DNA of 64,000 nucleotides, from the NCBI RefSeq assembly GCF_016405145.1, contig NZ_JAEKIA010000003.1, positions 1 through 64,000 on the forward strand, read 5' to 3'. The position numbers and the translations under genes were made by a program. The notes beneath the pieces were generated by a model. That model did no database searches. It saw only the letters and a program-made list of their open reading frames with translations, and was not told where the DNA came from. The stretch is from Schaalia cardiffensis. Its GTDB lineage: Bacteria; Actinomycetota; Actinomycetes; Actinomycetales; Actinomycetaceae. Of the stretch, positions 24,650 to 63,456 are shown piece by piece; positions within the stretch are counted from its first letter, which is position 1, and every line of letters begins with the position of its first letter.

Positions 24650-25908
24650 TGCTGGGCTCGGTTGATGCTGAGGGCCGGTTGAGGAGCCTTCTGTTCACGA
24701 GAACCCGGAGCTGTTGCGCTGTGCGGTCTGCACGTGTGTGCTCTTGAGCCTTGTGATGAGGAGGTTGTCGTTTGGTTTCAGTCGGTGTTTCGCCCAGGCT
24801 CCTGGTTTTTCGTCAGATTCCTGTCGCAGGGCATCTACTCGCACCTGGAAAAGTGGAGCTGATGCCGACCATGACTTTTCGTTTGGTTGCGGCGTTTGCT
24901 TGCACTCGGATAGGTGGAATCGGAGGCAGTTTTCGTGGCGCTCGCTTTGTCTGGTTTCAGGAGTGGCAGTGTCCATTCCTTGTGCTTCTAGCACCCTTGG
25001 GGTTCTGGCCTCTTTGCCCGCTGAGCATGTGGGGAAGCCTCTAAGGGTGTCGAAGGCTATTTGCGCGTGGTTCCTCAAGATCCTGACTGCCGAGACCAAG
25101 GACAGTGCTGCGTCGTTTTGCAAGCATGCAGCTGTGTTCTTTAGGTTCCTGGGTGCCTGCGTGCGGTGGTTGAGGAGAGGCAATGGTGTCTGCCACTTAC
25201 TGCTCGGGTCTCTTCGCACTAGTCCTGGACGAGGGTGTCAATCACAGGCGCACTGGCCGCTGCCGACCTTAGAGCAGTGGCACGGTTGATTGTTTCACCC
25301 CACCCCTTAATGGCGAGTAATTCCCGCTCCCGTAGACCAACGTTCGTCCGTGTTTTATCCCGACCCCTGCATGGTGAGCGGAGCTACGCGCGCACGTGGT
25401 CCAGCAAAAGCTGAACATGGTTGCCTAGGGGCTGCGGCTCCGGCACGAATCGTCGCGATCCCCCACGCAGCCTTCGAGGGCTAAATCCTCACCGACGGTG
25501 TTCACAATCGCACTGGCAGGTACGCGAATACCTGCCTGAGGGTGCTTTCATAGAGTTTTGGTGCAGAAACATGAGCGGAAGTGGAAGTCAAGGCACGCTT
25601 GTATGAGTGAAGGATCTTGAGAGTGAGGGATTCCTTAAGTTCTGCTTGCGTGGGCGAAGGGATCATGAGTGGAGGGTAGAGTCGCGGCAGCGTGAGTGGA
25701 GGGGATATAGCCCCTCCACACATCGCCAAAACCTCCTTTTATGGGTGAGTCCCGCTGTCAGGCGACCTTACTCCCTCCCCTTGCTCAGCTATTTAGAACA
25801 GCAAAGCCAGAAACAGCCCTCATCGGAAGATCCCTCCTCTGAGCAACAGACCACACCAGATTCTCTAGCGTCACACCCTGATCTGTTCCAGTCAGGCTCA
25901 TGAAAAGT
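24650..25908. other. 1.26-kb stretch without a recognisable gene
   Basis: No reading frame here has family motifs, actinobacterial codon bias or a good start. Open frames exist on both strands (for example minus 24695-25219 and plus 24714-25289), but they overlap each other and are rich in Cys, Ser, His and Trp, as chance frames are. Composition is less G+C-rich than neighbouring genes. A perfect 8-bp hairpin (GGCAGGTA, TACCTGCC) lies at 25515-25536 and a palindromic repeat at 25.7 kb. A plus-strand frame ends at 25903 with QQSQKQPSSEDPSSEQQ and could be the tail of something lost. The stretch ends at a poly-G run. Confidence 0.6.
25670..25737. repeat. nested palindrome family, copy A
   Basis: Inner arms GTGGAGGGG (25696-25704) and CCCCTCCAC (25711-25719) flank the loop ATATAG. 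Outer arms are degraded: GTGGAGGGT on the left and AAACCTCC on the right. It shares layout and core with copies at 29.6, 33.0 and 62.0 kb. Confidence 0.7.
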
Positions 25909-29562: not shown

Positions 29563-29626
29563 AGTGGAGGCGATGGCGTGTTTTGGAGGGGTTATATCCC
29601 CTCCACTTGTCGCGAACCCCTCCACT
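29563..29626. repeat. nested palindrome family, copy B
   Basis: Inner arms GGAGGGG (29585-29591) and CCCCTCC (29598-29604) flank TTATAT. Outer arms are AGTGGAGG (29563-29570) and AACCCCTCCACT (29615-29626). It lies in the gap 29299-29750 between the rpsF leader and the MATE stop, which has no gene. Confidence 0.8.
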
Positions 29627-31558: not shown

Positions 31559-32914
31559 GTGGCGGAAGATTTTGATCGCACACCACCACAGGACATCGAC
31601 GCGGAAATGTCGGTCCTCGGATCGATGATGCTCACCACTGATGCGATCGTTACTGTCACAGAGGAGATTCGCGGTTCCGACTTCTACATGCCGAATCACG
31701 AGATCATCTTCGATGCGATCGTGGACCTCTTCGGTCAAAACGAACCCGCCGACGCGATCACTGTTGCAGGGTATCTGCAGCGCGAAGGCACTTTGTCCAG
31801 GGTCGGTGGCGCCCCCTACTTGCATACCCTCATCGCTTCGGTGCCGACTGCGGCGAACGCTGGTTACTACGCGCGCATCGTTCGTGAGCGCGCGATCATG
31901 CGTCGCCTTGTCACTGCGGGCACGCGCATCGTCCAACTCGGTTACGCCGAGGCCGGTGGCGAGGTCGAAGAGATCGTCGAACAGGCGCAGTCCGAGATTT
32001 ATGCGGTCTCTTCGGAACGCACCGCAAGGGACTACGTCGCCGTAGGCTCTATGACTCATGAGCTGCTCGAACACCTTGAAGACATTGAGAAGTCCAAAGG
32101 CAAGCTGCAAGGTGTTCCCACGGGATTCAAGGAGCTTGACGACCTGACACAAGGGCTTCGTGGCGGTCAGATGATTATCGTTGCCGCCAGACCCGCTATG
32201 GGCAAGTCCACTCTCGCCCTCGACTTTTGCCGCTCGGCCTCGATCAAGCATGGGATCACATCCCTGGTCTTCTCCCTTGAGATGAGTCAGCAGGAGATTG
32301 CGATGCGAATGCTCGCTGCAGAATCAGGAGTGTTCCTGTCCAAGATGCAGGCGGGCTCGATGAATGACACCGACTGGAAGCGTGTCGCCAGAACGATGGA
32401 GAGAGTCTCCGACGCCCCCTTGTATATCGACGATTCACCGAATATGACGATTACGGAGATTCGTGCGAAGTGTCGACAGCTCAAGCAGCAGCACAACCTC
32501 GGCCTCGTGGTGATCGACTACCTGCAGCTCATGACGAGCGGCCGACAGGTCGAGTCTCGTCAGCAGGAAGTCTCAGCCATGTCGCGTAATCTCAAACTCC
32601 TCGCGAAGGATATTGGAGTTCCGGTGGTTGCCGTCGCGCAGCTCAACCGAAACTCCGAGTCGCGCAATGACCGCAAGCCGATGATGTCTGACCTGCGTGA
32701 ATCTGGTTCGCTGGAGCAGGATGCGGACATCATTATGCTGCTGCATCGTCCCGATTATTACGACAAGGAAGACCGTCCAGGAGAAGGCGACATCATTGTC
32801 GCGAAGCACCGTAATGGTGAGACTGCAGTAATCCGCACCCTCTTCCAGGGTCACCTCTCGCGTTTCGTCAACTACAGCGGTCGCGAAGAGCCGCACAATA
32901 CGCGACAAGACTGA
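31559..32914 (+). CDS. dnaB: replicative DNA helicase DnaB
   Basis: The hexameric helicase that unwinds the replication fork. The N-terminal domain starts RTPPQDIDAEMSVLGSMMLT, family-typical. The RecA-like C-terminal domain has AARPAMGKSTLALDFCRSAS (Walker A), VFSLEMSQQEIAMRMLAAES, VVIDYLQLMTS (Walker B), SAMSRNLKLLAKDIGVPVVA and SDLRESGSLEQDADIIMLLH. Length 451 residues is normal and there is no intein. GTG at 31559 has GAGAGG six bases upstream. In actinobacteria dnaB commonly follows rplI; here the MATE gene and repeat-bearing gaps separate them. Confidence 0.96.
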   Translation: MAEDFDRTPPQDIDAEMSVLGSMMLTTDAIVTVTEEIRGSDFYMPNHEIIFDAIVDLFGQNEPADAITVAGYLQREGTLSRVGGAPYLHTLIASVPTAANAGYYARIVRERAIMRRLVTAGTRIVQLGYAEAGGEVEEIVEQAQSEIYAVSSERTARDYVAVGSMTHELLEHLEDIEKSKGKLQGVPTGFKELDDLTQGLRGGQMIIVAARPAMGKSTLALDFCRSASIKHGITSLVFSLEMSQQEIAMRMLAAESGVFLSKMQAGSMNDTDWKRVARTMERVSDAPLYIDDSPNMTITEIRAKCRQLKQQHNLGLVVIDYLQLMTSGRQVESRQQEVSAMSRNLKLLAKDIGVPVVAVAQLNRNSESRNDRKPMMSDLRESGSLEQDADIIMLLHRPDYYDKEDRPGEGDIIVAKHRNGETAVIRTLFQGHLSRFVNYSGREEPHNTRQD

Positions 32915-32997: not shown

Positions 32998-33061
32998 AGT
33001 GGAGGCTGTGACGACAAGTGGAGGGGTGATATCCCCTCCACAATTCGTCAACCCCTCCACT
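32998..33061. repeat. nested palindrome family, copy C
   Basis: The best-preserved copy. Inner arms GTGGAGGGG (33018-33026) and CCCCTCCAC (33033-33041) flank TGATAT. Outer arms AGTGGAGGCTGTGACGA and TCGTCAACCCCTCCACT can pair with a few mismatches. It lies in the 498-base gap after dnaB (32915-33412), which has no gene. Confidence 0.82.
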
Positions 33062-47172: not shown

Positions 47173-47263
47173 GTCGAGGAGTATCACGACGAGCGTGAAT
47201 GCTGCGTTTGGTGAGCTCTCCCTCGTGTGAATCGCATCGTGCCCGGGCGTTGAGCCCGCAGAC

Positions 47264-47299
47264 GCTGGAGGCCCTGACGGTTCCGTCAGGGCCTCCAGC
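47264..47299 (+). terminator. very strong hairpin after coiled-coil gene
   Basis: Perfect 17-bp stem GCTGGAGGCCCTGACGG / CCGTCAGGGCCTCCAGC around TT. Confidence 0.8.
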
Positions 47300-47346
47300 A
47301 TGTGTTCAGCCATGTGAGGTGAAGACCCGATGTGACTCGGAACTCG

Positions 47347-60780: not shown

Positions 60781-61839
<1,059 letters not shown>

Positions 61840-61942
61840 TCACCTTCTCCTCGCAGTGCGAGTGGAGGGGGTTGCGAGTGGGCGAGTGTCGTGTCGGTGG
61901 CACTCTTCTTCCCGTGCGTGTTCGTGGCTTCCCCGAATCGTG

Positions 61943-62006
61943 AGTGGAGGGGTTTGCGGTAAAAGGAGGGGTTGTATCCCCTCCACATGTCGTCAACCCC
62001 TCCACT
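61943..62006. repeat. nested palindrome family, copy D
   Basis: Inner arms GGAGGGG (61965-61971) and CCCCTCC (61978-61984) flank TTGTAT. Outer arms are AGTGGAGGGGTT (from 61943) and AACCCCTCCACT (to about 62006). The gap 61744-62142 also holds partial GTGGAGGGGGTT (61861) and CCCTCCACTCAGG/GCTCCACTCAGG (62065-62097) pieces. No gene is seen there. Confidence 0.8.
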
Positions 62007-62142
62007 TGGTTGGGGCACCCCCTCCGCTTGGTTAGAGGCTATGTGTCTACTTGCGCGGGAGACCCTCCACTCAGGTGGGGGAATGGCTCCACTCAGGCGG
62101 GATCCCGCTCAGCCAGTGAACGCCTCCAAGGAAGTGGGGGAC

Positions 62143-63456
62143 TCAGTCGCGAAGGAGCTCGAGAAGATGGGCGAAGACCTTCCCAGAAGAGGCGCGAAGG
62201 CCGTCATGCTGGTATTCGTTCGTGATCCAGGTCCGGGTGTTGCGAACCGTCTGGGCGGTCGCAAGGGAGAGCTCGCGCGGGACGAACATATCCTCCTCGT
62301 AGACCGCGGCGGCGATCGGAACCTCGTTGGCGGCGAGGCGCTCGGGCGAATACACCGCAGGCCAGTCCGTGCGCGCAGCGAGGATATCGCTCGTACCCGC
62401 CAGAGGGACGAGGGCGAGGTCCTCATCGAAAATGCGGCGCATCATATGCTCCCCGGTCAGGTAATACGGTTCGGAGGCATCCAAAGGATCGGCATCCTTG
62501 GCGAATCCGGGCACTTCCTCGGCAAGACGATCAGCCGACCAAGCGGTCGCCGTTCCCGCAAGCTCCGGAGTCGCACACGCGTAGATCGCCTCCTGGAGCA
62601 CGCCGTACATGGGGTTCATCGCGACCTCCGCGGCCACGCCCTCGAGAAACTCTAAGGAGAGGCGCCGCTCGCCGCGAAGCGTGACGAAGGGGCCTTCGAG
62701 CAGATAGTGCAACATGTCCGTTCGGCTTTGCATCCCCAGGCTCATACCGATCATGCGCAAGCGCTCGCTCGAGAGGCGCTCACCCGTGGGCAGCAGCTCC
62801 TCCGTGTCCCGCACATGGGCTGCGACCTCGCGGATCTTCTGCTCGTCACCCGGGTAGCGCGAGAAGTAGAAGCGGTTGCGCGCCGCAGTCTTCTCATAGC
62901 TCAGACGGTAGATGTCATCGACATGGACGAGGCCGGGAAGGCCGCCGGTCACGAGGGAGGCCTCGACGGCCTCCGGCGCGGTCGACAGGTAGGCGAGAGT
63001 GAGGAAACCGCCGTAAGACTGCCCGAGGGTCGTCCACTTCGCGCCATCGGTGATCTCAGCGCGGAAAGCCTCGGCATCTTTGATGATCTGATCTTGACGG
63101 AAGAGCATGAGATGGTCGGCGCGAGCCTGATCATCGGTCAACTCCTGGAGGGCTTGCCAGTCCATACGAGTGGACTGGCCCGTGCCTCGTTGATCGAGGA
63201 GCACGACGCGGAACTCCTTGAGCGCCTCGCCGATCCACCCATCGCGGAAGTCTCCTTGACGCGGCCCCTTGCCGCCCGGACCTCCTTGGAGGAATACGAG
63301 GTGCGGGAGCTTTTCCCCGCCCGGGCGGATGATCTCGCGGGCGAAGATCTCGATCTTGGGGTTCGTTGGGCTGAGCGGCTTCGAATGATCGAGGGGGACC
63401 TCAAGACGATGCTCGTGGACGGTGCAGGAATGCTGAACGTAGGTCGTCGTGCGCAT
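62143..63456 (-). CDS. alpha/beta hydrolase, S33 prolyl-aminopeptidase-like
   Basis: A 437-residue peptidase of the proline iminopeptidase group. The oxyanion-hole strand is LVFLQGGPGGKGPR, the DQRGTGQST motif follows, and the nucleophile elbow is LGQSYGGFLTLAYLSTAPEA. The catalytic Asp/His should lie in the C-terminal third, near the YEEDMFV and NEYQHDGLRASSG segments. There is no signal peptide, so it is cytoplasmic and probably releases N-terminal proline from short peptides. It is monocistronic; the azlD gene lies about 180 bases upstream on the same strand. Confidence 0.9.
   Translation of the reverse strand: MRTTTYVQHSCTVHEHRLEVPLDHSKPLSPTNPKIEIFAREIIRPGGEKLPHLVFLQGGPGGKGPRQGDFRDGWIGEALKEFRVVLLDQRGTGQSTRMDWQALQELTDDQARADHLMLFRQDQIIKDAEAFRAEITDGAKWTTLGQSYGGFLTLAYLSTAPEAVEASLVTGGLPGLVHVDDIYRLSYEKTAARNRFYFSRYPGDEQKIREVAAHVRDTEELLPTGERLSSERLRMIGMSLGMQSRTDMLHYLLEGPFVTLRGERRLSLEFLEGVAAEVAMNPMYGVLQEAIYACATPELAGTATAWSADRLAEEVPGFAKDADPLDASEPYYLTGEHMMRRIFDEDLALVPLAGTSDILAARTDWPAVYSPERLAANEVPIAAAVYEEDMFVPRELSLATAQTVRNTRTWITNEYQHDGLRASSGKVFAHLLELLRD

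Follow-up and report, generated by a model that had tools for sequence, protein, structure and literature searches.

Dispersed nested palindromes of Schaalia cardiffensis as candidate sites of a repeat-enzyme pair with a PD-(D/E)XK-type nuclease-like protein

The 64,000-nucleotide stretch of Schaalia cardiffensis DNA analyzed here (contig NZ_JAEKIA010000003.1, positions 1 to 64,000; hereafter the window) contains a short nested palindrome at 32998..33061, and the question this locus raises is what such a repeat is and what could have spread it. A reading made from the sequence alone had listed it as one of four intergenic sites, each a nested palindrome with an inner hairpin. We located nested palindromes at all four sites; in each, 19-bp units surround the core GGAGGGG-N6-CCCCTCC. 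The copy under study is on the plus strand, downstream of ORF 31559-32914 (dnaB-like by eye). A second plus-strand copy at 29563..29626 has the outer arms AGTGGAGG and CCCCTCCACT plus an additional degenerate right-hand unit that extends to about 29645, and the copy at 25663..25744 has five extra bases in one arm and is of minus orientation relative to the family (its loop being read as TTATAT). The remaining plus-strand copy, at 61943..62006, lies between two minus-strand ORFs, 60781-61743 (nrdF-like by eye) and 62143-63456. Degenerate GTGGAGG and CCTCCACT units are found on either side of it (about 61860-62100), as if they were an older decayed array.

Three copies have the core, TGGAGGGG-N6-CCCCTCCA, without mismatch (25697-25718, 29584-29605, and 33019-33040), and the fourth (61964-61985) differs from it by a single change. 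At the loose setting of three or fewer mismatches the window gave four core matches versus 0.75 expected, a number also reached by one of 100 shuffles, and CCCCTCCA occurs 16 times versus 3.0 expected (0 of 100 shuffles gave as many). When folded as single-stranded DNA the four copies had z-scores of -3.2 to -6.7, with 1, 0, 0, and 0 of 200 shuffles folding equally well. A covariance model trained on 17 of the genome's 18 exact-core copies gave E values of 4e-18 to 4e-17 for three window copies, which were part of its training set, and 2e-8 for the copy at 25663..25744, which had been left out (5-base insertion). A weak match of the model at 47259-47304 reads as a G+C-rich terminator-like hairpin and was rejected. 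No known Rfam family reached its gathering score, a comparison of 8 kb of window DNA with plasmids confirmed no relative, and one exact 31-base pattern found no match among viral contigs.

The consensus of the 18 exact-core copies (R and N denote mixed positions) is AGTGGAGGGG-TTGRCGNNN-TGTGGAGGGG-TTATAT-CCCCTCCACTTGTCGTCAACCCCTCCACT. The sequence-only reading held that inner and outer arms have the same sequence; the nesting stands, the arms are better described as direct repeats of a 19-bp unit, and the element has a preferred polarity. The TGTCG/CGTC word said to lie between the right arms is clear in three of the four copies. It sits between the inner and outer right arms rather than at the element end; the consensus ends are AGTGGAGG...CCTCCACT, with no GTAG or CGTC tetranucleotide at the palindrome foot. 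A lack of compensatory changes, leaving the arms unmaintained, had been named as an outcome that would count against the reading. The core is invariant because the copies were selected by that core, and in the arms 80.3% of the cells were paired compared with 83.9% after within-column shuffling (500 of 500 shuffles at least equal), with 5 pairs changed on both sides versus 7.9 in the shuffles. For the outer arms the outcome is thus the one that counts against the reading, and an RNA structure preserved by covariation was rejected. As the copies are related to one another, we take the result as an absence of covariation and read nothing more into it.

The repeats are a dispersed and diverged multi-copy family, as had been supposed, and the further copies looked for in the genome were found. 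The covariance model detected at least 27 places in the S. cardiffensis genome (54 rows, both strands) and at least 35 in Actinomyces culturomici Marseille-P3561 (70 rows, both strands). Among the other 33 genomes of the genus there was at least one row in G017, at least one weak row in G015, and at least two weak rows in G024, and the remaining 30 of the 35 genomes gave no match at E 0.001 among the candidates scored. These copy numbers and counts of positive genomes are lower bounds, the candidates scored per genome being at most 140 in the genus, 12 in the order, and 5 in the phylum. In a pattern scan of a genome contig collection, which may omit the window genome, A. culturomici was the only organism matched. 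An order sample of 396 genomes (with no A. culturomici row) gave at 1e-6, among the matches listed, only S. cardiffensis and a genome of another family, G322. The G322 copies are a GGAGCGG variant with a core spacer that looks like five bases by eye, and they were missed when we scanned with the spacer of the core fixed at 6 bases.

None of the 27 S. cardiffensis copies overlaps a called gene, in agreement with the intergenic location first reported, although our simple codon-usage gene caller is approximate and misses genes (coding fraction 0.72), for example around the 25.7 kb copy. Fifteen copies lie between co-directional genes, ten between convergent genes, and two between divergent genes, such spacers totaling 45, 20, and 20 kb, respectively. 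Convergent spacers hold 10 of the 27 copies versus about 6.4 expected by spacer length. This excess, together with the stability of the hairpins in single-strand folding, favors an explanation in which the repeats are transcription terminators or RNA hairpins that ordinary recombination has multiplied and that have no tie to a nuclease. However, the lack of compensatory changes in the arms argues against this explanation, which also leaves unaccounted for the two-sided clade-specific bracketing of nuclease-like genes and the recurring 19-bp spacing given below, and we consider it improbable.

That the family is REP/REPIN-like was the interpretation first given, and the repeats have that look, being palindromic, intergenic, dispersed, and doublet-like, as would be those of an ordinary REP/REPIN family that relies on a RAYT transposase. 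Membership in REP/RAYT did not hold up. A search for Y1_Tnp (PF01797) at E 0.001 was positive in 0 of the 35 genus genomes and in 5 of 14 control genomes, on which a RAYT was rejected as the partner enzyme. The lack of compensatory change in the arms also counts against membership, and the gene that the repeats bracket is an unrelated one. An ordinary RAYT-served family thus has hardly any likelihood left.

The bracketed gene (140198-141232) is on the contig of the window but beyond the window itself, flanked by one copy at 140114-140187 and another at 141380-141453. It encodes a stand-alone nuclease-like protein of 344 residues. The route to it was through G322, where the repeat copies (one on each side) bracket a single gene, the product of which matched the S. 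cardiffensis gene, among others, in a tblastn search. In A. culturomici the ortholog, which is 60% identical and has one neighbor in common, is flanked by two copies on one side and four on the other. In both species one neighbor of the nuclease gene is substrate-binding-lipoprotein-like; the other side holds a sugar-kinase-like ORF in S. cardiffensis and, in A. culturomici, a transporter-like ORF and more repeats followed by a kinase-like ORF (all from translations judged by eye). Three of the four copies on the one side of the A. culturomici gene lie in near-identical 161-bp units, each with a palindrome, that stand in tandem beside the gene (L095:11340-11780). A second bracketed S. cardiffensis paralog (L112, about 16.5-17.5 kb; G000:C12:128470-129495) has its own TTCCAGGTTTCCCGGC repeats beside the gene; a scan of 409 kb of the genome found no such repeats away from it.

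What kind of protein is encoded? The Pfam matches of three proteins of the family (P0001-P0003) were all below the curated cut-offs: in the C-terminal part of P0003, REase MTES_1575 scored 22.5 bits (cut-off 38.2) and DUF559 scored 14.0 (cut-off 20.6). Other genes in nine genus genomes do pass the DUF559 cut-off (22 of 31 rows). Residues E220, D251, E262, D264, and K268, which follow the E, D, E-x-D, K order of the PD-(D/E)XK core, are invariant in all nine aligned members, and the corresponding E/D/E-x-D/K positions are conserved in four of four members of a separate alignment. Judged from these residues the bracketed gene encodes a PD-(D/E)XK-type nuclease-like protein, with catalysis predicted. 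A RAP domain matched two of the nine aligned members. A PDB profile search gave three matches (E 0.19 to 1.1) that we read as chance, and a single-sequence fold model had a mean pLDDT of 40.7, too poor to use. With the A. culturomici nuclease as query, no relative was confirmed among plasmids, phages, or viral contigs, and with the nine-row alignment none was confirmed among viral contigs; a plasmid or phage origin was rejected.

The G322 protein gave weak AbiEi matches in PADLOC (E 1e-4 and 3e-3). AbiE is a type IV system of which AbiEi is the antitoxin, and AbiEi is autoregulated by binding to inverted repeats. The palindromes could be operators at which the protein, through an N-terminal part resembling AbiEi, represses its own promoter, the solo copies being regulatory sites or decayed operators with no mobility. 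The copy upstream of the nuclease gene and the tracking of repeat type with protein, shown below, would suit an operator. However, copies of the same family are also found downstream of the gene, many copies per genome are distant from it, convergent spacers hold ten of the 27 copies whereas only two lie in divergent ones, and the AbiEi match was limited to one of the three proteins (the other two had none) and then to 0 of nine members at E 0.01. We regard the operator explanation as unlikely, though the strongest of the rivals.

The association of repeats with genes of this family was seen well beyond the GGAGGGG repeats. The nuclease family has 126 rows in 33 of the 35 genus genomes, and the locus set totals 124 (122 genus rows plus the two of G322; four of the 126 rows have no locus of their own). 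Many flanks carry repeats of their own that are unrelated in sequence between loci. At least 20 ten-mers were common to both 800-bp flanks of 62 of 121 family genes (119 from the genus and two from G322) compared with 21 of 371 control ORFs taken from the longer of the same regions (Fisher p 4e-27); the first batch had given 36 of 64. When the upstream flank of one gene was paired with the downstream flank of a same-genome paralog only 1 of 382 swapped pairs was positive compared with 62 of 121 own pairs, and therefore the repeats are specific to each gene. The 59 of 121 genes without a strong two-sided repeat count against enzyme-repeat pairing, although the test misses diverged pairs (the bracketed S. 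cardiffensis gene itself scores 1). The flanks begin at the edge of the tblastn match rather than at the gene end, so that partial matches include coding DNA, and three of the 124 loci (L321, L336, and L351) lacked full flanks and were left out. Orthologs inherit repeats by descent, and thus the bracketing counts are not independent.

Relatives are also found in the phylum, where a four-row profile detected them in at least 33 of 396 genomes at 1e-10, S. cardiffensis included. Outside S. cardiffensis at least ten common ten-mers were present in 11 of the 25 loci with usable 500-bp flanks (of 29) versus 6 of 600 swapped pairs, and 12 of the 29 loci exceeded the largest of 30 shuffles of their own flanks. 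Seven of the 29, chosen as the clearest, have by eye matching palindromes on both sides, each with its own sequence. The association of repeats with nuclease genes thus extends into the phylum. Five loci outside the genus (L389, L374, L383, L388, and L396) appear to have one palindrome per side rather than long arrays, as with AGACACAAACTCGGGCGA in G775.

Repeat words go with clades in two nuclease trees, one of 63 rows (64 less L227, which was read to a stop) and one of 122 rows (124 less L358 and L359). All nine rows of one clade have GGATAGG, and outside this clade no row reaches three copies of it (in the 122-row tree it was confined there at two or more). CGGCGTGTC was in nine of nine rows of another clade and confined to it, CATTGGGGC in a pair of tree rows, and ACTTCGTGTG in a trio. 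GGAGGGG is a commoner word that occurs in low numbers at other loci and 12 times in L267, a locus of G031, where it is part of a different array. That array is a 42-bp tandem repeat that flanks the nuclease hit on either side, in a single direction and, as far as seen, without the nested-palindrome layout.

The spacing of the words is often the same. At 17 chosen loci, neighboring same-strand words within 60 bp were 19 bp apart in 87 of 87 GGATAGG pairs, 7 of 7 GGAGGGG pairs, 10 of 12 GCTGCACC pairs (the other two at 38), and 2 of 2 AGTTAGGGAGC pairs. CATTGGGGC is an exception to this register, with a spacing of 20 in 6 of 8 pairs. When neither loci nor words were chosen, exact repeats at a distance of 19 were found at 43 of 124 loci, each represented by two 800-bp flanks, versus 4 of 228 control 800-bp pieces, and 19 was the strongest distance between 10 and 45 both by count and by loci. 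A second peak at 42 (918 versus 95 by count; 23 loci versus 18 control pieces) includes a contribution from L267. A sequence that varies together with a register that is often constant is the best hint that one protein family could be recognizing these repeats.

Two other repeat types are also dispersed. At two or fewer mismatches the GGATAGG core gave 7-39 forward matches in ten of the 35 genomes, single matches in two, and none in 23, and the reversed control pattern gave no match in any of the 35. Nine of the ten GGATAGG-rich genomes carry the bracketed clade gene, and among the rows read none was found in the other 25 genomes. These ten genomes also contain the CGGCGTGTC sites, and the corresponding clade gene is present in nine of them; the ten are probably related, and thus the two tests are not independent. 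In the six genomes with copies listed on both sides (G010, G019, G022, G023, G025, and G028) the CGGCGTGTC copies and the gene are co-directional. G023 has 24 forward GGATAGG-type matches, yet none of its four nuclease paralogs is bracketed by GGATAGG. The tenth CGGCGTGTC genome, G009, has 35 repeat matches and an N-terminal nuclease remnant beside one copy. This remnant (L418:5539-5886; G009:C8, about 181.5 kb) has about 114 residues and is 97% identical over 105 to the G010 gene; from it, repeats seem to outlive the nuclease gene.

G028 and G034, the GGATAGG-clade nucleases of which are nearly identical, allowed nine pairs of regions to be aligned, three of which we compared base by base. 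At one of these sites about 257 bp including the repeat are missing from G034, at another a GGATAGG element in G028 is matched by a AGTTAGGGAGC-type element in G034, and at the third both genomes have GGATAGG units, but different ones. The differences suggest fast turnover. No clean insertion with target duplication was seen in this comparison, and the ends were not clean.

The position of the genes between copies of the same repeat could also arise by homing without dispersal, in which the nuclease would cut pre-existing palindromes and its gene be copied into them, the palindromes having spread by another route. Homing endonucleases of the Vsr-like (EDxHD) kind, which are small, have the PD-(D/E)XK fold, and play a part in mobility, do exist. 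However, in the genomes read there is one bracketed gene per repeat type and many solo sites, and repeat type and nuclease clade co-occur. Homing without dispersal is therefore unlikely, marginally more so than the operator explanation.

We favor, with a probability of roughly 0.6, the reading that the window repeats are dispersed sites of a repeat-enzyme pair in which a protein multimer would bind, cut or nick the core, and spread the element. From the observed pairing, architecture, clade specificity, and register we infer recognition, binding, cutting, mobilization, and spread along the following lines. The nuclease-like protein would bind the 19-bp units as a multimer and would cut or nick DNA at the palindromic core, and the ensuing repair or copying would move and multiply the element and its units. 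The autonomous form would be the nuclease gene with its flanking arrays and the non-autonomous copies would be the solo palindromes, the gene standing to the palindromes as RAYT genes stand to REPINs, but with an unrelated enzyme. The broader proposal, which we hold more tentatively and at somewhat less than even odds, is that of a widespread, unnamed actinobacterial selfish element consisting of a PD-(D/E)XK-type nuclease gene and its own palindromic array, often with a 19-bp period, with solo palindromes as non-autonomous copies. Such an element would be the counterpart of RAYT/REPIN by convergence, and its specificity would be diversifying.

How does the proposed repeat-enzyme pair compare with known systems? 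In REP/REPIN systems the same repeats bracket the RAYT (TnpA-REP) gene ('REPtrons') and genomes with several families can have repeat-specific enzymes (PMC3733652, PMC3116915). The present system is similar in that short, dispersed, intergenic palindromes in many copies (27 places) also bracket an enzyme gene. It differs in having a PD-(D/E)XK-type nuclease-like protein where no Y1 (HUH) enzyme was found, in its arrays of 19-bp units, the sequence of which changes between clades with the spacing often kept, and in lacking the GTAG (or CGTC) tetranucleotide at the palindrome foot. The best reading is that of an enzyme-repeat system that resembles REP/RAYT and probably works in a similar way, but whose enzyme is unrelated and which does not itself belong to REP/RAYT. 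TIRtrons carry tyrosine transposases, and at least one class of REP-like repeats, the CGTC-tagged REPs, is described as apparently without a dedicated transposase (PMC3733652). The likeness to both is that of repeat families beside, or without, a transposase; however, in CGTC-tagged REPs the CGTC is an end tag, whereas here it lies inside the element, and we claim no membership. Unlike Vsr-like homing endonucleases, no intron or intein was seen, and the palindromic repeats both bracket the gene and occur alone. The likeness to AbiEi is an N-terminus that may form a winged helix and could thereby bind inverted repeats, whereas the nuclease-type C-terminal domain and the dispersed sites set the system apart from AbiE. 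By title and abstract, none of the matches listed in a literature search linked DUF559/Vsr/AbiEi-type nucleases with palindromic repeats; that search covered open-access PMC with few subscription papers or preprints, so absence from print is unproven. The finding is larger than that first noted, and the bracketing of related genes by repeats of their own, commonly with the 19-bp spacing, points to an enzyme-repeat partnership that appears unrecognized.

Several observations weaken the enzyme-repeat pairing: the unbracketed G023 paralogs, the confinement of the repeats of the second S. cardiffensis paralog to the vicinity of its gene, the L267 layout, and the 20-bp spacing of CATTGGGGC. It is weakened also by the lack of clean insertions between G028 and G034, arms without covariation, Pfam matches below threshold, and the poor fold model.

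A clade-tied nuclease-like family with a 19-bp register would offer a testable enzyme for REP-like repeats that lack a dedicated transposase. Its clades may serve as a natural series in which the DNA partner of the protein changes. The proposed pairing also gives a testable function to a family that is currently filed near DUF559/MTES_1575.
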